From Candidatus Bathyarchaeota archaeon (GTDB lineage: Archaea > Thermoproteota > Bathyarchaeia > Bathyarchaeales > Bathyarchaeaceae): DNA of 24,002 nt. Both the position numbers and the translations under genes were made by a program. Below, one piece after another: positions 7,043 through 23,092 of the stretch; the first letter of the stretch is position 1; each line of letters starts with the position of its first letter. Location of the stretch: positions 231,048 through 255,049 of the forward strand of contig CP070636.1 of the NCBI GenBank assembly GCA_020356305.1, in the 5' to 3' direction. The notes under the pieces are model-generated. The model was given only the letters and a program-made list of their open reading frames with translations. It did not search any database and was not told where the DNA came from.

Positions 7043-8452
7043 CTAGTGAGAATGAAGGTTTTTTATTAGGTCCTGTAGCTTGTTCTTGGCTGTCGTGACG
7101 AGTTCTTCAGTGATCAGTTTCTCTGCTTTGGCTTCCTCCAGTTTTTCTTCATCCAACTTTCTTACTGTCCCGTTCGGCCAAATACAAATGTCAACCTCTA
7201 GGTCCACGTAACGAATTCCATGCGGATAAAGTTCTATAGGGGTATTCAGGTTAATGTACGTCCCTTTGTAGTCTCCCTCCTTCGAAAAATACTGGGTTTC
7301 GAAATGCCAATCTCCAACCTTGGCTTCGGTAATGGCGCGGTCTCCAAGATCTTTTGGAGTTCCAAGGCCGTCGTAAACCCCTTTTTTCTCAAAAACTCGG
7401 CTCAGTCGAAGCGTTGACTGATCATGGTTGAAGGCGTCCACCAAGGCTTCTCCCAAATCCAACACCTTCCCGTCAAGTTTTACATGCTCCATTGATATCA
7501 CAGAACCCACTGTAGGAAACTCTGCTTCCACAGTCTGTTTGAAAACGTCTTTCACCTTTGCAGGAGAATAGCCTTTCTCCAACAGTCTCTCCGCCATGTC
7601 TAGCGCCAATGAAATCCGTCTTCCACACGCCTTGTAGTAGTGATGCCCTTCCATCGTTGGTGCAACACACCTACGAAACTCATCTAGCTTCATCTTTGAC
7701 AGGGAAGGAAACTCCACATTCAGAAAGCTCCGTCCCTCCCATAGCATTGCAGGCGCTTCCACACGCTCGGCTTGCTCCACAACAGCTCGTCTCTCTCTAG
7801 CCAGGCGTGTGACTTCCTCCCGCAGCACTTCATCCGACTGACGGGCAGCAGCAGTACGCCAAAGAATTCCCCAGTTTGGAGGGATCAGCTCCTCCCCAAG
7901 TTTCTGGAGCCGGAACCTAATCTGGGGATCTCGAATCTTCTGGCTGACCCTAACTAGATGCTCAGGCATCAAAACCGCGTATCTCCCAGGAAACTCTATC
8001 GCTGTGGTTAAGATCGGCTTTCTAGCTCCCATCCTTCTTCTCTCAACCTGAACCACAATCTGCTTCAGCTCAGGATTCACGACCTCTATGTTCGCGATCT
8101 TGCCCAACACTACCCCAATGTCAACTACGAATGCGTGACTTCTGAGATCCTCCTCTTCTATTAACCCCTTGTAAATTCCATCAGCTGTGACCGCCCACCT
8201 CCTAACTATGACGTCGTCTAAGCGGGACTGCGCAATAGAGCAAAACGTGTTGATACTTTCAGCTTTCCCCAGCGCCTGAACTCCCTGTCGATCAAACCGA
8301 TCATTGACGTCAAGATCAGGCGACTCATCGCATTCGTCTAATCCGAATCTTTCCCTCAGGGTGATCGAAGGTTGAACAATGTCGAACCCATTGTCAAGAA
8401 GAAGCTTCGTTAAAGCAGTTGAATATATTCCTCGAACCCGAGCCTTCGCCAT
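7043..8452 (-). CDS. FAU-1-type ribonuclease / AU-rich RNA-binding protein
   Basis: Archaeal FAU-1 binds AU-rich RNA and has RNase E/G-like activity, with a reported role in rRNA maturation. This protein has 469 residues, close to the family norm. It starts MAKARVRGIYSTALTKLLL, has an S1-like N-terminal half (RSHAFVVDIGVVLGKI, FPGRYAVLMPEHLVRVSQKI, and PPNWGILWRTAA as in RNase E/G), and ends in a DUF402-type domain (GDWHFETQYFSKEGDYKGTY, NTPIELYPHGIRYVDLEVDI). The frame is open to 8506, but GAGGAGGG at 8459-8466 suits ATG at 8452 (spacing 6) or at 8455 (spacing 3). With either start the gene begins 13-16 bases after rtcA, so the two form an RNA-processing operon. Confidence 0.9.
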   Translation of the reverse strand: MAKARVRGIYSTALTKLLLDNGFDIVQPSITLRERFGLDECDESPDLDVNDRFDRQGVQALGKAESINTFCSIAQSRLDDVIVRRWAVTADGIYKGLIEEEDLRSHAFVVDIGVVLGKIANIEVVNPELKQIVVQVERRRMGARKPILTTAIEFPGRYAVLMPEHLVRVSQKIRDPQIRFRLQKLGEELIPPNWGILWRTAAARQSDEVLREEVTRLARERRAVVEQAERVEAPAMLWEGRSFLNVEFPSLSKMKLDEFRRCVAPTMEGHHYYKACGRRISLALDMAERLLEKGYSPAKVKDVFKQTVEAEFPTVGSVISMEHVKLDGKVLDLGEALVDAFNHDQSTLRLSRVFEKKGVYDGLGTPKDLGDRAITEAKVGDWHFETQYFSKEGDYKGTYINLNTPIELYPHGIRYVDLEVDICIWPNGTVRKLDEEKLEEAKAEKLITEELVTTAKNKLQDLIKNLHSH

Positions 8453-8458
8453 CATCGT

Positions 8459-8466
8459 CCCTCCTC
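8459..8466 (-). promoter_or_regulatory. Strong ribosome binding site for the FAU-1 gene
   Basis: GAGGAGGG on the minus strand lies 6 bases before the ATG at 8452 and 3 before the adjacent ATG at 8455. It rules out the longer upstream reading that would overlap rtcA. Confidence 0.65.
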
Positions 8467-8468
8467 TG

Positions 8469-9509
8469 CTAAGCTTCAATCTTCTCAATTCGATAAAGAT
8501 TGCCAAGCTTGGTAACTTGAAACTTCACACCCAAAATCTTCTGGGTAAGCCAAAGGTTTGTATCTAGATGGGCAGTCATGGAACGAGCAAGATAAACCGA
8601 GTTGCCCTCAGCCAAAGCAACATAGGGGACCAGCAGATCAGCGAGATGCGTATCAACTGTGGCCCTAGCTTCTATCTCCTTGAAGAGGTTCTCAGCAGCT
8701 TCACGACCCACCACCTCGCTGACTTTGCGAAGTTCGCCAATAGCGTCGCCTCCCAACAGCACGTCCGCACTGCTTTTTGCCCATAGTACGAGCGAGCTTC
8801 CTTTCTGAAGCGGATTGGACATATCGTTAACCACTTTAATCTCTGCCTCAAAACTGCGGGCCCTGAGATACTGGTTGGCTGCCCTAGCTTGGCGCTCCGC
8901 AACCTTCCGATCTGCTAGAAAGGTGCATACAGAAACTCCGCGTAGCTCCTCTATTTTTCCAAACTTGTCAAGTCGCAAAGGATCCAGTTTTTGGCAAGGC
9001 TCAACCGCCATTGAAACTTCGCCCATGCCTTTGGGATAGTAGCCATACTTTCGGATGGTTAGGTAAGCCTTCAAACCCATTCGCTCAAGTGTGGGAAGAA
9101 GCACGTGTTTCAGATAATTTATGGTGGGGGCATGACGAACATCGGTGCCACCCTTCACCACGTGAATGTTCGCTGTGCGTTTGGCACAGACACAAAGCGG
9201 CAACACTGTCAACAAGAGCATGGGAATGCTGCCGGCGGTTCCAATCTCAGCACGTATTTCGCCTCCTTTGATCTCGCGAGGCTCAAACCAAAGTTCACGG
9301 GAGCCCAACGTGGCACCTCTAGTCTCCGCACTGCAAAGCCTCGCCGCCGTGAGTGTAGCCTCAAGATGCTGAGGCCGCAAACCTGGCTGGCTTCGATTTT
9401 CACGGATGTTGTAAATGTGCAACGGCTCACCGAGAATGCCAGCTAGGGCTATTGCTAGGCGCAAGATGGTGCCGCTCCCGCTCTTTTGGCTGCCGTCAAC
9501 TTCCAGCAC
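8469..9509 (-). CDS. rtcA: RNA 3'-terminal phosphate cyclase (RtcA)
   Basis: Converts RNA 3'-phosphate ends to 2',3'-cyclic phosphate using ATP through an enzyme-AMP intermediate. Counting from GTG at 9509 (346 residues): substrate-loop residues SQPGLRPQHLEA around 40-51, GTAGSIPMLLL near 90-100, GGTDV near 120, YYPKGMG near 157-163, ADLLVP with D291, and the nucleophile region TAHLDTN with H314. GTG is preferred because GGAGG sits 7 bases before it and the product then begins LEVDGS, like typical family members. A TTG at 9515 lies only 1 base after that site. Oddities: the usual GEGGGQ loop reads KSGSGT here, and the usual glutamine after GTAGS..L.L is leucine. Operon with FAU-1. Confidence 0.88.
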   Translation of the reverse strand: MLEVDGSQKSGSGTILRLAIALAGILGEPLHIYNIRENRSQPGLRPQHLEATLTAARLCSAETRGATLGSRELWFEPREIKGGEIRAEIGTAGSIPMLLLTVLPLCVCAKRTANIHVVKGGTDVRHAPTINYLKHVLLPTLERMGLKAYLTIRKYGYYPKGMGEVSMAVEPCQKLDPLRLDKFGKIEELRGVSVCTFLADRKVAERQARAANQYLRARSFEAEIKVVNDMSNPLQKGSSLVLWAKSSADVLLGGDAIGELRKVSEVVGREAAENLFKEIEARATVDTHLADLLVPYVALAEGNSVYLARSMTAHLDTNLWLTQKILGVKFQVTKLGNLYRIEKIEA

Positions 9510-12416: not shown

Positions 12417-14522
12417 ATGGAGCTCGCCTTGCCAGAAATTCACCTCGGACCAAATGTTCTTTCGGATTTCAACAAGGCGATTCGGATGGAATGGCTGGTA
12501 ACCAACGGGTTAGGCGGATACGCCTCTTCCACAGTGCTGGGGATCAATACCCGAAAGTATCACGGTCTACTGATTGCTGCTTTCAATCCGCCCATAGATC
12601 GAAGAGTTCTCCTAACCAAACTGGATGAAGAAGTCGAGATTGGAAGCAAATCCTACTCGATCGGTTCCAACGAGTTTGAGCACGGCGTCCAACCTGAGGG
12701 GTATCGGTTTCTCTCAGGCTTCACACTCGACCCCTTACCAACTTACAAATATGCCATAGAAAACGTTCAACTTCAGAAAACCATCTTCATGCCACAAGGA
12801 AAGAACGCAACCATCGTAAAGTACGACATCTTCAATCCTCACGATGATAAGGTGTCCATCCGCGTTTTTCCGTTAGTCAATAGTAGACATTTCCATTCCC
12901 TCACAGATAAAGAAACGCTGAGTTGGGATATCATTCAAAAACCCTTTGAAGAAGGGGTGATCATTCATCCGTCAGTTCCGCTATCACATCTAATTATTTC
13001 TTCAGACAACGGTCAATATTTTGCCGGAAAAGGAGAATGGATCAGACGTATTCATTTTCGCGTGGACAGCTCACGAAGAGAGAGTTGCCATGACGACGGT
13101 TATAACCCTGGATGGTTCGAGGTTAAAGCAGCTCCCGAAGAGCGAACAGAAGTTCATGTTGCTGCCGTAGCGGCAAAAACAGAAGAGGACGTGAAGAGCA
13201 CCTATTCATCGCTTTTCAAAGGCATAAATGCGCTGCGTCTTAACGAGTTAGAGCACCGAGAAGGTTTGATTGCAAAGTTCCGAAACCAGCACAGTGACAT
13301 TAGAAGCAAGAACTGGCTGAAGTGGCTGGTTTTGGCCACAGACTCCTTCGTGGTGAACCGAAAGACAACCAAAACAAAATCAGTGATCGCTGGTTATCCG
13401 TGGTTTGAGGACTGGGGTAGAGATTCGCTGATCTCCCTGCCAGGGCTGACGTTGATAACTGGGAGGTTTGAGGACGCAAAACAGATCTTGCTTACATTTA
13501 AACACTATTGCCAAGAGGGCGTAATTCCAAACAGGTTCCCAGATCAGGCAGACGGAAAACCGGACTACAACACTGTGGACGCGACACTCTGGTACTTCAA
13601 CGCGGTTCTTCAGTACATGAAATACACGGGAGACCAGGATTTCGTCCATGAAGAGCTTTGGAGTCTCTTGAGATCAATTGTTGAACATCATCGCCAAGGA
13701 ACCCCGAATCGAATACGTTTGGACGACGACGGGTTGATCGAACACGGTCCGCAATTGACGTGGATGGACGCCATGGTAAACAATGAGTCTGTCACACCGA
13801 GAGATGGAAAAGCTGTGGAGATCCAGGCTTTATGGTACAACGCCCTCAAAACGATGGAACTGCTGGCAACATCTTTCAATGAGAAGGAGCATGCAGAGGA
13901 ATATTCCCTCTTGGCAGAGCGGGCTAGAAAGAGTTTCGTGGAGAAGTTTTGGAACCCGCAGATGGGTTGCTTGTTCGACGTGATTCGCGGCGAACAGAAG
14001 GACGCTTCTCTCAGACCAAGCCAGGTGATCGCCGTTGCGCTAGACTTTTCCATTCTTGACAAAACAATGAGCGAGAAAACAATTGAGACTGTTTGGAAAA
14101 GACTTTTCGCTGCCTATGGCCTGAAAACCCTGGCACAGGACGACCCGCGCTATGTTGGAAAATACTTAGGAGATTGGAACCAACGCAACAAAGCCTACCA
14201 CAACGGCACAGCTTGGGCTTGGCTCCTAGGCCCTTTTACCACCGCCTTCTTGAAGGTGAAGAACCACGAGGAGCACTGGCGCATCTTCGCCTTTGACACA
14301 TTTCTTCAGCCACTCTTTGATAAAGAAACTTTTCGAGCTGGACTGGGGACAATAAGTGAAATATTTGACGGCGACCCACCCCACACGTCTAGGGGAGCCA
14401 TAGCGCAGGCTTGGAGCGTGGCAGAACCTCTGAGGGCTTTTGTTGAAGATGTCATGTTGAAGAGACCCCCATACGAACGAAGAATCCTAGGAACGCGCGA
14501 AACAGTTTCAAATGAAAAATAG
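12417..14522 (+). CDS. Glycogen debranching enzyme, archaeal type (amylo-alpha-1,6-glucosidase, GH133)
   Basis: Removes alpha-1,6 branches during glycogen breakdown. The 701-residue protein has the archaeal debranching layout. An N-terminal beta-rich domain begins MEWLVTNGLGGYASSTVLGI with NTRKYHGLLIAA (about residues 24-55). An (alpha/alpha)6 catalytic domain runs from about 290 to 685, with IAGYPWFEDWGRDSLISLPG near 324-343, NTVDATLWYFNAV near 382-394, GPQLTWMDA near 444-452, and NGTAWAWLLGPF near 599-610. The start is ATG at 12417, 47 bases after the DUF89 gene. The strand and short gap allow read-through from the tpiA operon. It works with the GH57 enzyme and the two GT4 synthase-like proteins downstream. 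Confidence 0.93.
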   Translation: MELALPEIHLGPNVLSDFNKAIRMEWLVTNGLGGYASSTVLGINTRKYHGLLIAAFNPPIDRRVLLTKLDEEVEIGSKSYSIGSNEFEHGVQPEGYRFLSGFTLDPLPTYKYAIENVQLQKTIFMPQGKNATIVKYDIFNPHDDKVSIRVFPLVNSRHFHSLTDKETLSWDIIQKPFEEGVIIHPSVPLSHLIISSDNGQYFAGKGEWIRRIHFRVDSSRRESCHDDGYNPGWFEVKAAPEERTEVHVAAVAAKTEEDVKSTYSSLFKGINALRLNELEHREGLIAKFRNQHSDIRSKNWLKWLVLATDSFVVNRKTTKTKSVIAGYPWFEDWGRDSLISLPGLTLITGRFEDAKQILLTFKHYCQEGVIPNRFPDQADGKPDYNTVDATLWYFNAVLQYMKYTGDQDFVHEELWSLLRSIVEHHRQGTPNRIRLDDDGLIEHGPQLTWMDAMVNNESVTPRDGKAVEIQALWYNALKTMELLATSFNEKEHAEEYSLLAERARKSFVEKFWNPQMGCLFDVIRGEQKDASLRPSQVIAVALDFSILDKTMSEKTIETVWKRLFAAYGLKTLAQDDPRYVGKYLGDWNQRNKAYHNGTAWAWLLGPFTTAFLKVKNHEEHWRIFAFDTFLQPLFDKETFRAGLGTISEIFDGDPPHTSRGAIAQAWSVAEPLRAFVEDVMLKRPPYERRILGTRETVSNEK

Positions 14523-15797: not shown

Positions 15798-17369
15798 GTG
15801 TGCGTGACCGATGTTTGCCTCATGTTTGAGGCTCACCAGCCGCTAAGGCTCAATCACAACTTCCACTTAGACCTAACGGGTCATCCCTCATTGAAGAAAA
15901 AAGATCTAAGTGAACTCTATTTTGACCAGAAGTTAAATCGCCACATTTTTGAAAGGGTTGCTCAAAAGTGTTACTTCCCATCCAATACTATTCTCTTGGA
16001 ACAGATAGACCGGTACAAGAGAAGTCGAAAAAAGTTTAAGGTGGCTTTTGGCATATCTGGCATACTAATTGAGCAGTGTGAACGTTGGAATCCAGACCTT
16101 CTGGACTCTTTTAAACAACTCGCAGAATCTGGGTGCGTTGAGTTTCTTGATCAACCTTACTACCACTCCATTGCCGGTCTCTACGGCACGGATCGATCAG
16201 AATTTGTTGAGCAGATCCAGATGCACCGCCAACTTATGAAGGATCTCTTCAACTATGAGCCAAAGGTGGCAGAGAACACCGAGTGCTTGTACAACAACTC
16301 TATTGCAAAGACTGTTGAAGGACTGGGTTACAAAGCCACGGTCACAGAGGGCGTTGAAAGAATTCTTGGTTGGAGAAGCCCAAATCATGTGTATACGGCG
16401 AAAGACTCTTCCCTTCCGGTTCTACTTCGCAACTACCGTCTGTCGGATGACATAGGATTTCGCTTCTCCTCTACTTGGTGGCAGGAGTGGCCGCTGACCG
16501 CGGAAAAATACGCCAGCTGGTTGGCATCAACTGAAGGGGATGTGATCGTCCTTTTTGTTGATTACGAAACTTTCGGTGAGCATCATTGGTCGGAGAGCGG
16601 AATCCACGATTTCTTAAGGTGGTTGCCTGGAGAGGTTATCAAATGGAATAATCTCTATTGGCATACACCATCAGAGGTCGTTCAGAGACACAGGCCCGCT
16701 GGGGAGATTGATGTTCAAGACTTCAACACGGTCTCTTGGGCAGACCTTGAAAGGGATCCTAGTGCTTGGATCGACAATCCGATGCAGATGCTCTGCTTTG
16801 AATCGCTAAAGGGGTTGGAGCAACTTGTCAAGGCAACGGGCGATGAAGAGCTGATCCGGCTGTGGCGTTATCTGCAGATGAGCGACCATCTTTACTATAT
16901 GAGCGTCAAAGGTGGGGGCCCAGGAGACGTTCACTGCTACTTCAACCCCTCTGGCAATCCTTTCGATGCTTTCACCGTTTACTCAAAGGTTCTTTCGGAT
17001 CTCGAGGCTAGAGTTATGTTGGAGCTGGAGAAACCTGAACTTGCAGCGAAGAGGATGTTACGTCGACTTCCAGCTGGGAAAGGCTTTACCTTCTTTAACG
17101 AGTTTGATCAACCCACTGAAATAAGTGTTCACAATCTCGAAGAGTTCTATTCTGCCCTTGAAGCCGTTGGCCTCAAGTCCATTCGGTTCCACATAAAACG
17201 AGGAGACTTTGAAGGTTGGCTTCGCCACGTAGTTGGAGACGAGAAGCTAGCAGACGAAATAGCGCACATATCAAGCAAGAGCTTGAGTGGCCGAGAGCTC
17301 CGCAAAAGAATTCTTGGTATCGTTGAAGCTAGAATTATGGAACTAAAGGAGATGCCAGTCAAAAGTTGA
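15798..17369 (+). CDS. GH57 alpha-glucanase (alpha-amylase/glucanotransferase-like) with extra C-terminal domain
   Basis: Hydrolyses or rearranges alpha-1,4-glucans, probably in the cytoplasm because no signal peptide is visible. The 523-residue protein begins with the GH57 motif MFEAHQPLR (E11, H13, P15), then FGISGILIEQ near 84-93. The nucleophile candidate is E152 in AENTECLYN, with TEGVERILGWRSPNHVY after it, and the acid/base candidate is D255 in VLFVDYETFGEHHW. A helical region follows to about 425. Residues about 428-517 (FTFFNEFDQP, LKSIRFHIKRGDFEGWL, SLSGRELRKRI) form an extra domain related to that of the regulator at 21358-21930; it may correspond to Pfam DUF5752. The start is GTG at 15798, with AAGGAG just upstream; a GTG at 15804 is also possible. 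First of a GH57-GT4-wHTH set. Confidence 0.92.
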   Translation: MCVTDVCLMFEAHQPLRLNHNFHLDLTGHPSLKKKDLSELYFDQKLNRHIFERVAQKCYFPSNTILLEQIDRYKRSRKKFKVAFGISGILIEQCERWNPDLLDSFKQLAESGCVEFLDQPYYHSIAGLYGTDRSEFVEQIQMHRQLMKDLFNYEPKVAENTECLYNNSIAKTVEGLGYKATVTEGVERILGWRSPNHVYTAKDSSLPVLLRNYRLSDDIGFRFSSTWWQEWPLTAEKYASWLASTEGDVIVLFVDYETFGEHHWSESGIHDFLRWLPGEVIKWNNLYWHTPSEVVQRHRPAGEIDVQDFNTVSWADLERDPSAWIDNPMQMLCFESLKGLEQLVKATGDEELIRLWRYLQMSDHLYYMSVKGGGPGDVHCYFNPSGNPFDAFTVYSKVLSDLEARVMLELEKPELAAKRMLRRLPAGKGFTFFNEFDQPTEISVHNLEEFYSALEAVGLKSIRFHIKRGDFEGWLRHVVGDEKLADEIAHISSKSLSGRELRKRILGIVEARIMELKEMPVKS

Positions 17370-17430: not shown

Positions 17431-18591
17431 ATGAGAATCTGTATGTTGACGTGGGAGTTTCCACCCAGAGTTGTGGGAGGAATTGCTCGACACTGTGAGG
17501 GTTTAGCTAGAGCCCTTGCTCATTTGGGTCACGAGGTGCATATCTTCACTTTAGACTTTCCCGGCGCGCCTGATTACGAAGAGATTGAAGGGGTCAAGAT
17601 TTACCGAACTGTTACGGAGCTGGGGCATCCAAACTTCCTCACGTGGGCTCTCTTGTTCAACCATTTCTTGGAGAAGAGACTAGGAAATGTGAGCCAGCAA
17701 GTTGAGTTTGATGCACTTCATGTTCATGACTGGCTAACGGCTCCGGCAGGTATCTCGTTCAAGTACCGTGCGAAAAAGCCTATGATTCTGACCGTTCACA
17801 GCACGGAAATTGGCCGTGCACAGGGCCTCCACAACCCCGACTCGCTTGCGATCGACGGAATGGAGTGGTGGGCAACCTATGAGGCGAGCAAGATTGTAGT
17901 GACCAGCGGTTCCATGAAGGGGGAAATCTGTGGCCATTTTCACTTGCCAAGCGACAAGATCAAGATAATTCCAAACGCGATCGATTTGGCAAGATGTCAT
18001 ACTTCAATTGACCGGGAGTCTGTTCGACGACGTTACGGAGTGGGTTCCAACGAGAAACTTGTCCTCTGCGTGGGTCGATTGGTTCCTCAGAAGGGAGTGG
18101 AACATCTGATTCGCGCTGTTCCCACCATATCTTGGCGTCATCCAGAGGCAAAATTCCTAATTGTGGGCGAAGGATGGTTAAAAGGTCACTTGGAATATCT
18201 CGCACGGTCTAGCGGACATGGATGGAAAATACGATTTACAGGTTTCCTTCCAGATTCAGAGGTAGTAGCGCTCATGACCGGCGCTGATGTTCTGGTTATT
18301 CCGTCCATCTACGAGCCCTTTGGGATCGTTGCTCTCGAGGGGATGGCCGCTGGTGTTCCAGTGGTGGCCAGTCAGGTCGGAGGGTTGGCAGAGGTGGTGG
18401 AGCATGACCGAACTGGGATTCATGTATATTCTAGGAACCCTGAGTCAATCGCTTGGGGAGTTGACCGAGTCTTGTCCGACCCCGGCCATTCGCGGTGGCT
18501 CACAGAAAACTCCCGAGAAACAATACAAAAGACTTATAGTTGGGATGGAATTGCTAAGAAAACCGTGAAGGTCTACAAAGAGGTGTTGTAG
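17431..18591 (+). CDS. GT4 family glycosyltransferase (glycogen/starch synthase-like)
   Basis: Likely transfers glucose from a nucleotide sugar to an alpha-glucan. The 386-residue GT-B protein opens with MRICMLTWEFPPRVVGGIAR, the glycine-rich acceptor/donor loop of synthase-like GT4/GT5 enzymes, followed by FDALHVHDWLTAPAGI and LTVHSTEIGR. The second Rossmann half has LVLCVGRLVPQKGVEHLIRA, with the R...K pair that binds nucleotide phosphates, and the E-x7-E motif EPFGIVALEGMAAGVPVVAS. The start is ATG at 17431, with GAAGG about 8 bases upstream. It lies 61 bases after GH57 and 4 before the small winged-helix gene. It is a paralogue of the 414-residue protein at 19956-21200. The exact donor (ADP- or UDP-glucose) is unknown. 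Confidence 0.9.
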   Translation: MRICMLTWEFPPRVVGGIARHCEGLARALAHLGHEVHIFTLDFPGAPDYEEIEGVKIYRTVTELGHPNFLTWALLFNHFLEKRLGNVSQQVEFDALHVHDWLTAPAGISFKYRAKKPMILTVHSTEIGRAQGLHNPDSLAIDGMEWWATYEASKIVVTSGSMKGEICGHFHLPSDKIKIIPNAIDLARCHTSIDRESVRRRYGVGSNEKLVLCVGRLVPQKGVEHLIRAVPTISWRHPEAKFLIVGEGWLKGHLEYLARSSGHGWKIRFTGFLPDSEVVALMTGADVLVIPSIYEPFGIVALEGMAAGVPVVASQVGGLAEVVEHDRTGIHVYSRNPESIAWGVDRVLSDPGHSRWLTENSRETIQKTYSWDGIAKKTVKVYKEVL

Positions 18592-18595
18592 CAAA

Positions 18596-18844
18596 ATGTC
18601 AGAAGAAGTACCCGAGGAATTTCGTCTCCTCTGTATGTTACACAATATAGGCGCAACTAAGGTGGAAAGGTCGCTGTCCATCAAGGAAATCTGCGAGTGG
18701 ACCGCTTTGGAAACATCATCGGTGGAGCTTCACCTTCGAAGGTTGGTTGAACTCGGCTACGTTCAACCTATTGAGGCTGAAGGAGCTGGTAAATATCACC
18801 TCACTCCAAACGGAATCAGAAAGGTGCTGACTCTCTACAGTTAA
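18596..18844 (+). CDS. Small stand-alone winged-helix protein
   Basis: The 82-residue protein is a single winged helix. SLSIKEICEWTALETSSVEL forms the turn and recognition helix start, HLRRLVELGYVQPIE leads into the wing, and KYHLTPNGIRKVL closes it. It resembles the N-terminal half of the regulator at 21358-21930 (shared pattern EI, SS, HL.RL, GYV, Y.LT..G...L). The start is ATG at 18596, 4 bases after the glycosyltransferase stop, so it is the third gene of the GH57-GT4 set. It probably regulates carbohydrate genes, possibly its own operon (inference). Confidence 0.82.
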   Translation: MSEEVPEEFRLLCMLHNIGATKVERSLSIKEICEWTALETSSVELHLRRLVELGYVQPIEAEGAGKYHLTPNGIRKVLTLYS

Positions 18845-18858
18845 TTGTTAACCCTTTG

Positions 18859-19905
18859 CTACAGGTCCTTTTCTTCCTTCTGGGCAGCTTCTCTCAGGTT
18901 TTCAGCAGCGTCTTCAGGTGGCACAACGTTTATGAACATTCCAGTGCTCTTCTCAAAGCCGGCCCAAATGGTTAGCTTGGGATAGACTTCCAGGTGCCAA
19001 TGATAGTAGTTGACATCTTCTTTGCTCGGCGCAATGTGAAATCCGAAGTTGTACGGGGGGTCACCTAACAGAGATTTTAAACTGCCAAGACAGATTCTTA
19101 ACGCCACTGCTAGATCGTTTACTTCTGCCTTTGACATATCTAGCAATGTTGACTCGTGTCTCTTGGGAAAAATCCAGAACTCGAGAGGGTGAACGCTTGC
19201 CCAAGGGGCGAAAGCAACGAAGCCATTGTTTTCCCAGATGAAGCGGGAGGTGGCCCTTTCTTTTTCTATGATTTCACAAAAGATACACCGCTCGTTTTTC
19301 GCCCAAATTCTTCTGCTCGCTTCCAATTCTTCGTTTACAATTCTTGGGACATTAGGAGTTGAAATCAGTTGAGTGTGGGCATGGGAGAGCGACGCACCAG
19401 CGTCTCGCTTATGATTTCTGAAGATGGAAACATAATTTGTGTAGGTCTTTGCAGAAATTTCGTGTAGTCGGTCAAGATAAGCGTTGACGACGTGGACCAA
19501 TTGTGGAATTCCTGCTACCCCAGGATGTTCGTCATGGTTTGGTGACTCAACGATGACTTCGTGATGGCCAATAGCCTTCATACGCACGGCACCCTTTTCA
19601 GTCTTCACCTTCTCTCTTTCATCTACGGGAGTAAACGCGGGGTACAGATTTGAGAAGCATCGGACCAACCAGCCCTTGTGGCGAAAGCCGTTTCGGTCTT
19701 TCTCTTTTCTGATTCTTCCGCCCGAAGGAACATAAGCAAGGACGGCTGGTGGTGTCATACGTTCATTACCCGGACAAAACGGGCATGCATCCCTTTTTTT
19801 CTCCTCCTTTTTCTGCACAAAATCGGTTGGTCGGCGTTTTCTCTCTGTGGCGATCACAACCCAACGTTCTAGCAAATAGTCTCTTCGCAACTCGTTCGAT
19901 GACAT
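18859..19905 (-). CDS. galT: GalT-family nucleotidylyltransferase (galactose-1-phosphate uridylyltransferase or NDP-glucose phosphorylase)
   Basis: HIT-superfamily nucleotidylyltransferase that moves a nucleoside monophosphate between sugar phosphates through a uridylyl- or adenylyl-histidine. The 348-residue protein has the start RRDYLLERWVVIATERKRRP, zinc-site cysteines CPFC (41-44), and the catalytic HxHxQ as SLSHAHTQ (172-179, nucleophile H177). Late motifs are YYHWHLEVYPKLT and GFEKSTGMFINVVPPEDAAE. The start is ATG at 19905. It converges with the small winged-helix gene (14-base gap) and lies 50 bases downstream of glycogen synthase in the same direction. No galK, galE or glgC is in the window. 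It could serve galactose use or supply nucleotide glucose for glycogen; the sequence alone cannot decide. Confidence 0.87.
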   Translation of the reverse strand: MSSNELRRDYLLERWVVIATERKRRPTDFVQKKEEKKRDACPFCPGNERMTPPAVLAYVPSGGRIRKEKDRNGFRHKGWLVRCFSNLYPAFTPVDEREKVKTEKGAVRMKAIGHHEVIVESPNHDEHPGVAGIPQLVHVVNAYLDRLHEISAKTYTNYVSIFRNHKRDAGASLSHAHTQLISTPNVPRIVNEELEASRRIWAKNERCIFCEIIEKERATSRFIWENNGFVAFAPWASVHPLEFWIFPKRHESTLLDMSKAEVNDLAVALRICLGSLKSLLGDPPYNFGFHIAPSKEDVNYYHWHLEVYPKLTIWAGFEKSTGMFINVVPPEDAAENLREAAQKEEKDL

Positions 19906-19955: not shown

Positions 19956-21200
19956 TTATAAAAGCTGTTTGTAGAGTTGAGCCGTTCTCTTGGCAACTGC
20001 GTCCCAGTTGAATCTTTGAAGAACTATTTTTCTGCCGTTTTGGCCAAGCCATTCTTTTCGTTGAGGATCCTGAACCGCGTTAATGAGTCCCCAGGCGATG
20101 TCCGATGGGTCTTCTGGGTTGACATGGAAGCCGCATTGATCTGAGCCACTTGGAACCACAGATTCTCTCATCCCACTAATCCCTGCAGCGCCCACCACTA
20201 CCGGTTTTCCCATACTCATCGCCTCTAATGCAACGATTCCGAATGGTTCATAGAGGCTTGGGAAGGCTGCAACGTCGCACGCTGCGTAGTGGGCGATCCG
20301 TTCTTCTTCGGGCACGAATTCGAAGCGGAATTTAACAGTGTCTTGGAGCCTTAATGTTTGAACTTGCTTTTCCAAGTAATCTCTCATTTCTCCGAGACCT
20401 AGAACCACCAATTTAACGTTTGGAACCTTTTGCAGAACTTGAGGCATCGCCCTAAGCAGCTTATCCACTCCCTTGATCCAGACGAGTCTGCCAATGAAAA
20501 GCGCCATCAAGTGGTTGTCTCCGAGACCATATTCCTGTCTTACGTCCCTGATCTTCTCCTCGCTCACCTGCGTGGAAGAATATTTCTCTGGGTCCACTCC
20601 GTTGTAGCAAACCTGAATCTTCTCTTTAGGAAAGCCGAGTTCTGTCATTTCTTTCTTCATAGCTTCGGAAACGGTGATGACCCTGTCTGCCATCTGCGCG
20701 GCACGATGTTCGATGTTGCTTACGACGTCGGATCCGTTGCCCAATGTTCGTCCTTTTTCGGTGGAGTGAACGTGAAAAACGAATGGCAAGCCCAGTTCCC
20801 TTTTGATTGCTATGCCAGAGATAGCTGAGAGCCAGTCGTGGGCGACAACTAGATCATATTTGAATTCGTCTCTTCGAACAAGTTCGTTGATTAGTTTTGA
20901 TGCGCTGAGGTAGTTATACATCAAGATTTTCGAGAAGAGCTGGATGCCTCTACCCCACTTTTTGATGTCTTCCGCGATTACGTCTGGCAGAGAATCGGAC
21001 ACATCGATGTGCGCTGGTCTATGAATCTCGATTCCACGCCATAGTTCCCTCGTTGGGAGGCTTCCTTCGTCGTCGTTCATGGTGAAGACTGTGACGTCGT
21101 GATCGAGTAGAACGAATTTTCTTGTGATTTCAGCGGCGTAGGTTCCTAAGCCTCCGACAATCTTGGGGGGATACTCGTATACAAGCACTGCAATCTTCAT
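19956..21200 (-). CDS. Glycogen synthase-like GT4/GT5 glycosyltransferase
   Basis: Probably extends alpha-1,4-glucan from nucleotide glucose. The 414-residue GT-B protein has MKIAVLVYEYPPKIVGGLGT at its N-terminus (GGLG acceptor loop), YDLVVAHDWLSAISGIAIKR, FVFHVHSTEKGRTLGNGSD, the nucleotide-binding ALFIGRLVWIKGVDKLLRAM, and the E-x7-E motif EPFGIVALEAMSMGKPVVVG near residues 333-352. Compared with the paralogue at 17431-18591 it is slightly longer, with an insert after the first strand pair (GSLPTRELWRGIEIHRPAHI). The start is ATG at 21200, with AGGAG 9 bases upstream. The galT-family gene follows after 50 bases. It is divergent from the winged-helix regulator at 21358, a natural position for regulation by that protein. 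Confidence 0.9.
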   Translation of the reverse strand: MKIAVLVYEYPPKIVGGLGTYAAEITRKFVLLDHDVTVFTMNDDEGSLPTRELWRGIEIHRPAHIDVSDSLPDVIAEDIKKWGRGIQLFSKILMYNYLSASKLINELVRRDEFKYDLVVAHDWLSAISGIAIKRELGLPFVFHVHSTEKGRTLGNGSDVVSNIEHRAAQMADRVITVSEAMKKEMTELGFPKEKIQVCYNGVDPEKYSSTQVSEEKIRDVRQEYGLGDNHLMALFIGRLVWIKGVDKLLRAMPQVLQKVPNVKLVVLGLGEMRDYLEKQVQTLRLQDTVKFRFEFVPEEERIAHYAACDVAAFPSLYEPFGIVALEAMSMGKPVVVGAAGISGMRESVVPSGSDQCGFHVNPEDPSDIAWGLINAVQDPQRKEWLGQNGRKIVLQRFNWDAVAKRTAQLYKQLL

Positions 21201-21357
21201 TTTAATTAGCTCCTGAAAGTCAGCGTATTTTTCACCTAGTGAATAGCGTTCCAGTCAATATGTTTTTCGCATTTAAGACCTTTTTCCAAGTCTTGACGTA
21301 TGTAAATGTCTGAAAAGGCTTTTTAATGTAACGGATTACTAATATGTGGGATATCCA

Positions 21358-21930
21358 ATGGAAAAGCGTTCCAAGACGAGAGGAGATGAAGTTAGAAGAG
21401 AAATTCTGAAGATGATGTGGGAAGTTGAGGGACCAGTGAGATCCTGGGAGATAGCGGAGAAAATGGGAATCAGCGTTCCTTCGTCTACTATGCACCTACT
21501 CAGGCTGATTAAGGCTGGGTACGTTTCTACTCCCCAAAAGGGGCATTACCTACTCACGGTTCATGGCAAAGAAATTTTGGGATTGCCAAAAGTTGACAGA
21601 GAGCTGGTTTCGCGCATCTTGAGTTCGGTCTCGTCAGAAAAGGCCTTCCACTTTTACAAAGGGACAGGTGAGTATCTGCAAGTGTTCGCAAACAGCCTCA
21701 ACGATTTCCGCGAAAAAATCATGGCCATCGACGTCAAGTCTGTGGAGTTTCACGTGCCACGGAGAGATTTTGAACTATGGTTTCAAAGCTTGGGAGACTT
21801 TGAACTAGCTGAGAAAATGGGCGAGATTAGACAAATGAGTTTGTCTGGGGAACACCTTCGAAAAAAGGTTTACGAAACAGTTAGATCTCGCTACGAGGAA
21901 CTGAAAAGACTATTCCAACAGCATGTGTGA
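21358..21930 (+). CDS. Winged-helix regulator with C-terminal domain shared with the GH57 enzyme
   Basis: The protein has 190 residues. Residues about 5-75 are a winged helix (RREILKMMWEVEGPVRSWEI, MGISVPSSTMHLLRLIKAGY, KGHYLLTVHG). Residues about 95-185 are a second domain (KAFHFYKGTGEYLQVF, DVKSVEFHVPRRDFELWF, MSLSGEHLRKKV) that aligns with the C-terminus of the GH57 protein; it may correspond to Pfam DUF5752. The ATG at 21358 is preferred over GTG at 21346. No SD site is visible; TTTTTAATG near 21321-21329 is a plausible TATA box giving an almost leaderless transcript. It is divergent from glycogen synthase and converges with FBP aldolase/phosphatase. A glycogen or sugar-phosphate-responsive regulator is a reasonable inference. 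Confidence 0.85.
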   Translation: MEKRSKTRGDEVRREILKMMWEVEGPVRSWEIAEKMGISVPSSTMHLLRLIKAGYVSTPQKGHYLLTVHGKEILGLPKVDRELVSRILSSVSSEKAFHFYKGTGEYLQVFANSLNDFREKIMAIDVKSVEFHVPRRDFELWFQSLGDFELAEKMGEIRQMSLSGEHLRKKVYETVRSRYEELKRLFQQHV

Positions 21931-21970: not shown

Positions 21971-23092
21971 CTACACAGGCTTGAACCTGTCCTTCAATTT
22001 TTCCAAAACTTTGGATATCGTGGTATATTCCATAACCTCCGCGCTGAGTCGAGCAGGTTCAAACTCGCCCATTCTTCGCAGAGCAGCGCCGTATTCAACA
22101 GCCTCGCGACGAGCCAGATCAAAGGCAGGATCATCAAACAGGTCGCTTATCAAGGGGAAACCGTCATCATCACTGGCAATCTTACCATCAGCAACTTGGA
22201 AACCGAGAGCCACTATTCTTGGGGGGCCGTCGAAAACGGTGCATCTGCTATCCTTTAATCCCACAGGCATCAACGGTCCCCAGTGACTGCCACGCATCCA
22301 ACCTTCAACAAAGTAACTGTGCATAAAGGGAACCAGAATTTCTCCAAGCGCAGGTAAGCCATGCTGAGCCCTTACAATGGAGACAGGATCATCTTTTCCG
22401 ATGTATCTTCCTGCTATTAACGCAAGCCTTGTTGTGCTCGTTACTCCGCATATGAGGTTGTCACTTGCCCGCCACACGTGGGAGACCACGTTGCGCCCAG
22501 GCGTCCCGATTAACGCAATTAGCTCATACATTTCCTCAGGGCACTTCAGGACAACTTTCTTGTTTTTGATTGTGTCAAGAACCTCGAACTTGAAGCCTCC
22601 AGCCATGCTAGGATCGATGACAAGTCCCGCAGTGCTGGTAGGGTCTGCAAATATGCGAAACATTGGGTAATTGAAAGCTCCAGGCTCTGTCTTGTCAGCG
22701 GCAAAAACAACGATAGGATCAGAGCCTCGTTCCTCGATTTCCATCTCGGCCACGCCAGGACCCATTCCGCGAACGTTCCCACTAAATGCTTGTTTCAAAA
22801 GGTCTTGTCCGGCACCATACAGCTTCAGACTTGCAGCCTTATTCGCAGCCTCTTGAAAGATGCTCCAAGCCAACTTGTGAATTTTAGGGTTGTTCTCCCC
22901 TCTGTTGTGAACCATGAGGAGTTCAAGATCGTCTCCTGCGTGAAACACATAATGGCTGTTGATGAGACCACTTTTTTGAGCCTCTACTAAACGTTTCTCG
23001 CCGATGTCCAGTAGAGGTTTTGGGACCGTATGATGTCCAGCTAGAGAACCCACATCACATTTGATCAGCGATACAGTCGTCTTTTGAGGCAT
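21971..23092 (-). CDS. fbp: Bifunctional fructose-1,6-bisphosphate aldolase/phosphatase
   Basis: Condenses triose phosphates to fructose-1,6-bisphosphate and dephosphorylates it to fructose-6-phosphate, making gluconeogenesis one-way. The 373-residue protein matches the family length. It begins KTTVSLIKCDVGSLAGHH (D13, H20), with metal ligands D54 and D55 (HAGDD), Q96 in YGAGQD, and ADKTEPGAFNYPMFRIFADP (D133). The Schiff-base region is RYIGKDDP with Y230 and K233, equivalent to the Tyr/Lys pair known in characterised enzymes, and Y356 is in EVMEYTT. The start is ATG at 23092, with GGTGA 7 bases upstream and a TATA-like CTTTTAAG near 23140-23147. With tpiA and the glycogen genes it completes a triose-to-glycogen route. 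Confidence 0.95.
   Translation of the reverse strand: MPQKTTVSLIKCDVGSLAGHHTVPKPLLDIGEKRLVEAQKSGLINSHYVFHAGDDLELLMVHNRGENNPKIHKLAWSIFQEAANKAASLKLYGAGQDLLKQAFSGNVRGMGPGVAEMEIEERGSDPIVVFAADKTEPGAFNYPMFRIFADPTSTAGLVIDPSMAGGFKFEVLDTIKNKKVVLKCPEEMYELIALIGTPGRNVVSHVWRASDNLICGVTSTTRLALIAGRYIGKDDPVSIVRAQHGLPALGEILVPFMHSYFVEGWMRGSHWGPLMPVGLKDSRCTVFDGPPRIVALGFQVADGKIASDDDGFPLISDLFDDPAFDLARREAVEYGAALRRMGEFEPARLSAEVMEYTTISKVLEKLKDRFKPV

Follow-up and report, generated by a model that had tools for sequence, protein, structure and literature searches.

Why do a glucan-active enzyme and a DNA-binding protein, encoded about 4 kb apart in a Bathyarchaeal genome, end in the same domain, and what might this domain do? 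The question is raised by a stretch of 24,002 nucleotides from a Candidatus Bathyarchaeota archaeon, the whole of which we call the window. Its part from 12.4 to 23.1 kb is, as judged from profile matches, a glycogen/gluconeogenesis locus, and scans for Rfam families and tRNAs across the window returned no matches. The features concerned are the following:

12417-14522, + strand: archaeal glycogen debranching enzyme (TIGR01561 gde_arch, 488 bits, cut-off 364)
15798-17369, + strand: GH57 enzyme with C-terminal DUF5752 module (PF03065 and PF19027 matches)
17040-17357, + strand: the DUF5752 module within GH57 (residues 415-520)
17431-18591, + strand: GT4 glycosyltransferase directly after GH57 (PF00534, 157 bits; best NCBIfam model glgA_Coryne, 202 bits, under its cut-off of 302)
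18596-18844, + strand: 82-aa winged-helix protein, 4 nt after the GT4 gene
18859-19905, − strand: galactose-1-phosphate uridylyltransferase (GalT)-like protein (PF01087 and PF02744 over cut-off; best NCBIfam models under cut-off)
19956-21200, − strand: second GT4 glycosyltransferase, divergent from the regulator (PF00534, 131 bits)
21201-21345, no strand: divergent promoter region between the second GT4 and the regulator (gap between open reading frames; upstream element common to part of the relatives)
21346-21930, + strand: winged-helix regulator with C-terminal DUF5752 module (HTH_5 and PF19027 matches)
21385-21528, + strand: winged-helix DNA-binding domain of the regulator (PF01022 HTH_5, residues 14-61 in 194-aa numbering)
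21601-21915, + strand: the DUF5752 module within the regulator (residues 86-190 in 194-aa numbering)
21971-23092, − strand: archaeal fructose-1,6-bisphosphatase (FBPase_3), tail to tail with the regulator (PF01950, 533 bits)

A DUF5752 module shared by enzyme and regulator

The GH57 frame is open over 523 aa from its GTG, and the database form of 521 aa begins at GTG 15804, two codons after GTG 15798. PF03065 (Glyco_hydro_57) matches residues 8-307 with 298 bits over profile positions 2-291 of 291. Residues E182 and D253 (P0121 numbering), located in the TEG and DYETFGEHH motifs, are invariant in 33/33 aligned homologues, and we take them to be the catalytic Glu and Asp. The regulator frame is also open, giving a 194-aa form from GTG or a 190-aa form from ATG 21358. 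Its HTH_5 match reaches 26.0 bits, above the Pfam cut-off of 22, and the NCBIfam ArsR/SmtB model HTH_metalloreg gives 22.5 bits, far under the cut-off of 55; a Foldseek search with the whole regulator as query filled the match list with winged helices. A first-pass annotation had described one module attached to a glucan enzyme and to a winged-helix protein, and the PF03065 and HTH_5 matches agree with both attachments.

The C-terminal regions of both proteins exceed the gathering cut-off of PF19027 (DUF5752; 23 bits, model length 208 positions), with 47.8 bits for residues 409-510 of the GH57 frame (E 1.5e-12) and 24.8 bits for residues 90-179 of the regulator (E 1.6e-5), so that the family name previously suggested with some reserve now has a profile behind it. 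Neither window protein covers all 208 positions; the best stretches are 97-208 and 107-207, that is, one module each. Compared directly by BLASTP, the two C-terminal pieces align over 99 columns with a single gap, 33% of them identical and 58% positive (E 1e-18 for this one comparison). A profile built from 58 regulator modules recovered 33/33 GH57 modules at 72-104 bits, the top of 2000 shuffled decoys reaching 9.3, and the profile from the 33 GH57 modules recovered 58/58 regulator modules at 80-99 bits (top decoy 7.2); hhalign of the two profiles gave a probability of 99.8. The claim that enzyme and regulator share a C-terminal domain is thus borne out, and by its sequence this shared domain is real, family-level and old. 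Its location was also given correctly, at about residues 428-517 of GH57 and 95-185 of the regulator, whereas the boundaries found here are slightly wider (415-520 and, in the 194-aa form, 86-190). The motifs listed at that time are the conserved ones in our module alignments.

The homologues that carry these modules are Bathyarchaeal as far as they are named, which most of them are not. Specifically, 49 GH57 homologues cover the module region, 47 of them with a precomputed PF19027 match, and the organism name, where given, is Bathyarchaeota; the regulator has 272 homologues, and among the 120 listed, all those with an organism name are again Bathyarchaeota.

The DUF5752 module comprises ~105 residues, a β-hairpin followed by five helices. 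Confident structure models of both window modules match a single PDB entry, 4CSO (OrfY), which supports a common predicted fold, as had been expected. The F-x-F, H, D-F and W positions are present in both window modules. Across 108 modules, H136 and W145 (194-aa numbering of the regulator) occur in 108/108, D141 in 106/108, each F of F-x-F in 105/108, and R139 in 86/108, the losses of the latter falling chiefly in the N copy of tandem proteins, where the column adjoins an insertion and may be misaligned. Losses of R139 mostly in the tandem N copy would be expected if one copy of a pair can spare the site. The invariant His, Asp and Trp could, against a sensing role, be residues of the fold core. 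The module motif resembles one of bacterial PEP/pyruvate-binding proteins; a pattern scan of viral contigs was empty, and we claim no relation to those proteins.

OrfY, tandem proteins and the architectures of the module

The sole solved relative found for the module is 4CSO, OrfY of Thermoproteus tenax, which a profile of GH57 and stand-alone modules detects twice, at residues 7-114 and 116-212 (E 2.7e-16). As read from the sequences, the 208 positions of the PF19027 model hold a ~105-residue module twice in tandem, and OrfY is built likewise. In locus L082, the tandem protein aligns with residues 2-214 of 4CSO without visible difference; its gene (7986-8636) is thus the OrfY gene of T. tenax or of a very close relative, and the next gene, overlapping by 4 nt, encodes a TreT-type GT4 enzyme (PF21269, 190 bits) that is closest, among solved chains, to trehalose synthases. 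Four of the enzymes encoded next to tandem genes score 400-447 bits with the NCBIfam model for Thermococcales TreT, under its cut-off of 775. Among 300 genomes of the phylum, 87 match PF19027 at E 1e-3 and 80 exceed the cut-off; 22 carry one full-length match and one a split match. The neighbourhoods of 20 of these 23 tandems were examined, and a same-strand TreT frame lies downstream in 19/20, overlapping by exactly 4 nt in 11 and beginning 334 nt downstream of the tandem gene in L079. The twentieth genome (G123, locus L072) has a tandem gene and no TreT match at E 1e-10. Sulfolobus acidocaldarius alone was positive for PF19027 among 14 control genomes. A placement of OrfY in the TPSP operon was considered and rejected: the operon is msc-gt-tpsp in the available part of the source (PMC3634074), and the 4-nt overlap is with treT.

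Since this sole solved relative is encoded beside a trehalose-making enzyme, the module probably serves sugar metabolism, as a sensor or for docking. GH57 enzymes from the 20 genomes with a tandem gene match the window GH57 family with E 6e-125 to 3e-134, and in 19/20 the match stops at profile position 391-408, short of the module; the exception, G046, matches to position 495 with an internal stop. Bathyarchaeal GH57, by contrast, carries the module.

Several observations concern the tandem proteins themselves. In their N copy, H49, H52 and H58, which shortly precede D67 and may bind a metal, are invariant in 10/10 aligned proteins, and single modules have one invariant His in the matching region. 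Three bacterial tandem proteins (P0243, P0250 and P0269) come from records named Deltaproteobacteria, Gammaproteobacteria and Rokubacteria, and plasmid searches gave no gene context for them.

To survey the architectures, an iterated module profile was run over 1330 ORFs of 77 loci, namely the window, 16 regulator loci and 60 loci chosen by hand from listings, so that the counts are no estimate of frequency. The 92 module-bearing proteins comprise 21 single, 20 winged-helix, 19 GH57 and 18 tandem proteins together with 14 others, of which seven have an N-terminal region of 60 residues, one has one of 40 residues and six are of other kinds. One of the 21 single modules (L005) is the end of a GH57 at the locus edge; two further tandem loci (L080 and L081), outside the 92, showed their two copies on an all-ORF search; and L002, being the same place as L087, was left out of later counts. 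In Bathyarchaeia the module is single, located C-terminally on GH57, behind winged helices or alone. Among proteins of the 60-residue type, those of L115 and L117 exceed the HTH_45 cut-off and carry a degenerate module (52-54 bits with the module profile, unreported by Pfam), those of L089, L098, L101 and L102 exceed the DUF5752 cut-off with sub-threshold N-terminal HTH matches, and that of L097 occupies the regulator's own gene slot.

Some of these loci have further regularities. In 7/21 single proteins the stand-alone module lies directly behind an Lrp/AsnC-family gene, an assignment made by scanning one member; these are L084, L085, L086, L094, L095, L100 and L103, and in 6/7 a divergent family 12 gene lies farther upstream. 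L115 and L117 share a gene row of winged helix plus degenerate DUF5752, a 480-aa protein, GH57-DUF5752 and a 446/454-aa protein (MFS in L115); the start of the 480-aa protein recalls, to our eye, maltokinases.

The module tree indicates that the GH57 and regulator lineages are old. Tandem N copies form one clade (18/18, UFBoot 98), as do C copies (18/18, UFBoot 99). Of the GH57 modules, 13/18 fall with the L005 GH57 end in one split (UFBoot 100), and 15/19 regulator modules fall in another with L015 and L097 (UFBoot 94), both of which occupy the regulator's gene slot. Outside the main splits lie the GH57 modules of L096, L115, L116, L117 and L121 and the regulator modules of L014, L114, L118 and L122. 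Because GH57 modules and regulator modules belong for the most part to different lineages, a recent local duplication of the module was rejected.

Such old and mostly separate GH57 and regulator lineages, and the variety of architectures (single, tandem and with several kinds of N-terminal region), would also suit a mobile structural add-on for stability or oligomer state, reused by unrelated proteins with no functional link between them. We consider this improbable, for TreT stands beside 19/20 tandem genes, GT4, debranching enzyme, FBPase and GalT neighbours are frequent, and the polar H, D and R positions are conserved across classes.

Gene neighbourhood, co-occurrence and the divergent promoter region

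The neighbours of the module genes belong largely to sugar metabolism. In 18 GH57 loci of unequal stretch length, GT4 occurs in 13, FBPase in nine, GalT in nine and the debranching enzyme in eight; additionally, a nucleotidyl-transferase gene of the NDP-sugar pyrophosphorylase type adjoins GH57 in L008. An FBPase-family gene lies immediately downstream on the opposite strand in 15/19 regulator loci, and a GT4-family gene immediately upstream and divergent in 8/19. The archaeal FBPase family PF01950 is known as fructose-1,6-bisphosphate (FBP) aldolase/phosphatase. Some modules adjoin Trm1-like, TrmO-like or topoisomerase I genes, with no evident sugar role. The family of the 82-aa winged-helix protein has 12 members in the fetched loci and lies within four genes of GH57 in 8/18 loci and of the regulator in 9/19.

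The C-terminal position on GH57, near debranching enzyme and GT4 genes, would fit an alpha-glucan-binding domain that anchors enzyme and regulator to glycogen. This is most unlikely, given that the tandem copies go with TreT, whose product is a disaccharide, and that some stand-alone copies lie behind Lrp/AsnC-family genes. No carbohydrate-binding module is among the structural matches listed for the isolated module, which does not speak against such a domain.

Enzyme and regulator tend to occur together. Among 201 Bathyarchaeia genomes, GH57 is found in 102 (E 1e-40, a few of them with partial matches short of the module) and a nearly full-length regulator in 87 (E 1e-46 or better, hand-picked); 79 genomes have both, eight the regulator only, 23 GH57 only and 91 neither (Fisher p 4e-25, uncorrected for phylogeny and completeness in a sample with near-duplicate genomes). 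Same-contig pairs in 29 genomes, three with identical spacing, are separated by at most 11.3 kb in 19, by 16.8 kb in one and by 22 kb to 1 Mb in nine. Proximity of the two genes is thus common, not obligatory, and the nine pairs at least 22 kb apart weaken the idea of an obligatory enzyme-regulator pair. With FBPase adjoining the regulator in 15/19 loci and the GH57 spacing variable, FBPase, not GH57, is the regulator's steadiest neighbour.

These data bear on a docking or dimerisation role, in which module copies pair with each other, as a homodimer or between GH57 and regulator, or bind GT4, and the regulator reads complex formation. OrfY is a built-in pair of modules whose gene overlaps treT, and in L007 a stand-alone module gene sits between the GT4 gene and the regulator. 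Moreover, both single-module models span 4CSO from residue 2 or 3 to 217 with just 94-96 residues aligned; if the alignment is sequential, its last part maps on the other OrfY copy, suggesting an exchange of end helices that single modules might make in a dimer. In T. tenax, as described in the available part of the source, another trehalose enzyme, TPSP, is activated through complex formation with a GT4 protein, which makes a docking role plausible, though the operon differs (PMC3634074). Nevertheless, the helix exchange is read from the end points of model alignments, the genome overlap is incomplete (23 GH57 only, eight regulator only), and the genes are at least 22 kb apart in 9/29 same-contig pairs, so that we rate docking as rather unlikely to be the module's role. 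Far more speculative is a trigger-enzyme circuit, in which the GH57 and regulator modules would swap the end helix as the OrfY copies seem to, and the state of the enzyme, free or busy on glycogen, would control the factor.

Upstream of the regulator, an element close to ATCTGAAAAG lies at 21308-21319. With at most one mismatch, ATCTGAAAAG occurs in 9/19 regulator upstream regions, some of them from close relatives, compared with at most five in 10 block shuffles; elsewhere in the window it is not over chance. The ATCTGAAAAG-like element may be a basal promoter element. The same region contains a perfect inverted repeat, AAGAC-N10-GTCTT, at 21275-21294, followed by GAC-N10-GTC. It was rejected as an operator, as the relatives show no such repeat in front of their regulator genes and, when up to two mismatches are allowed, its frequency in the window is that expected by chance.

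A proposed regulatory input and its known counterparts

The reading that we favour, tentatively, is that the module is a regulatory input of archaeal sugar storage and synthesis, and that both copies answer one glucose-derived signal. It builds on the shared family and fold, the OrfY tandem, the treT overlap, the winged-helix attachment and the glycogen/sugar neighbourhood. A module found in tandem beside a glucosyltransferase, C-terminally on a glucan enzyme and at the effector position of winged-helix proteins follows the pattern of a regulatory input domain, and its neighbours, TreT, GH57, GT4, GalT, FBPase and the nucleotidyl transferase, indicate glucose-derived metabolites as the signal. 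In this mechanism, one copy would act as the C-terminal domain of GH57 and another as the effector domain of a one-component winged-helix factor, and the signal for both would be one intracellular compound, a sugar, sugar phosphate or NDP-sugar. A common input could thereby reach GH57 activity and the transcription of the second GT4, the FBP aldolase/phosphatase and possibly the regulator itself; tandem OrfY would do likewise for TreT, as a subunit of its own. It is the sensing, the identity of the signal and the regulated genes that we infer here.

Other findings count against the sugar-sensing reading, namely the modules without evident sugar neighbours, the G123 genome without TreT and the scarcity of TreT in Bathyarchaeia (15/101 genomes). 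The depositors of 4CSO call OrfY a transcription factor, whereas DUF5752 is the only Pfam domain in three tandem proteins scanned, and this too stands against the proposal. The earlier interpretation as a whole is partly supported. Its two functional proposals, sensing of a sugar or sugar phosphate and pairing of enzyme with regulator, both agree with the data as possibilities; the solved relative 4CSO, the tandem nature of the Pfam model and the further architectures were absent from it.

The family name DUF5752 was already known, and some GH57 fusions are named 'DUF5752 family protein' in the source database; new here are the single and tandem forms, the links to the OrfY structure and to treT, and the set of enzyme, regulator and stand-alone proteins. 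A literature search, with most subscription journals outside its scope and absence therefore unproven, found no paper on the DUF5752/PF19027/4CSO family; by title, 'OrfY protein' refers there to Streptococcus suis and Salmonella PduO proteins, not DUF5752. DUF5752 becomes testable through a solved OrfY, its partner gene treT, and the presence of an enzyme and a regulator with matching modules in a single Bathyarchaeal glycogen locus, and deletion strains are reported, in the portions of the papers available, for archaea with a treT-linked module (PMC8158581, PMC7688234). The accessible text of a review describes archaeal glycogen metabolism and its regulation as mainly unexplored, and asks whether an amylase-type GH57 is the missing branching enzyme of TACK archaea (PMC11046441). 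A regulatory domain on an amylase-type GH57 would give a handle on both glycogen regulation and this enzyme.

As for known systems, the two module copies of OrfY carry insertions of 13 and 9 residues ahead of the DF motif and are joined by no further Pfam domain, whereas each window protein has one copy, fused to another domain. The neighbour of OrfY is TreT, whereas both window GT4 proteins lack a TreT_GT1 (PF21269) match, and the OrfY/TreT gene pair is absent from the window. One-component regulators of the ArsR and Lrp type have a winged helix followed by a C-terminal effector domain. The window regulator has a plan like that of these ArsR-type and Lrp/AsnC-type proteins, with DUF5752 as its C-terminal domain. 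As for the enzyme, a counterpart by analogy is the GH57 encoded by S. acidocaldarius amyA (saci_1200), a possible orthologue. Both genes have a glycogen synthase-like gene in a glycogen neighbourhood; in S. acidocaldarius, amyA and glgA lie on one transcript according to the available part of the report (PMC8158581).
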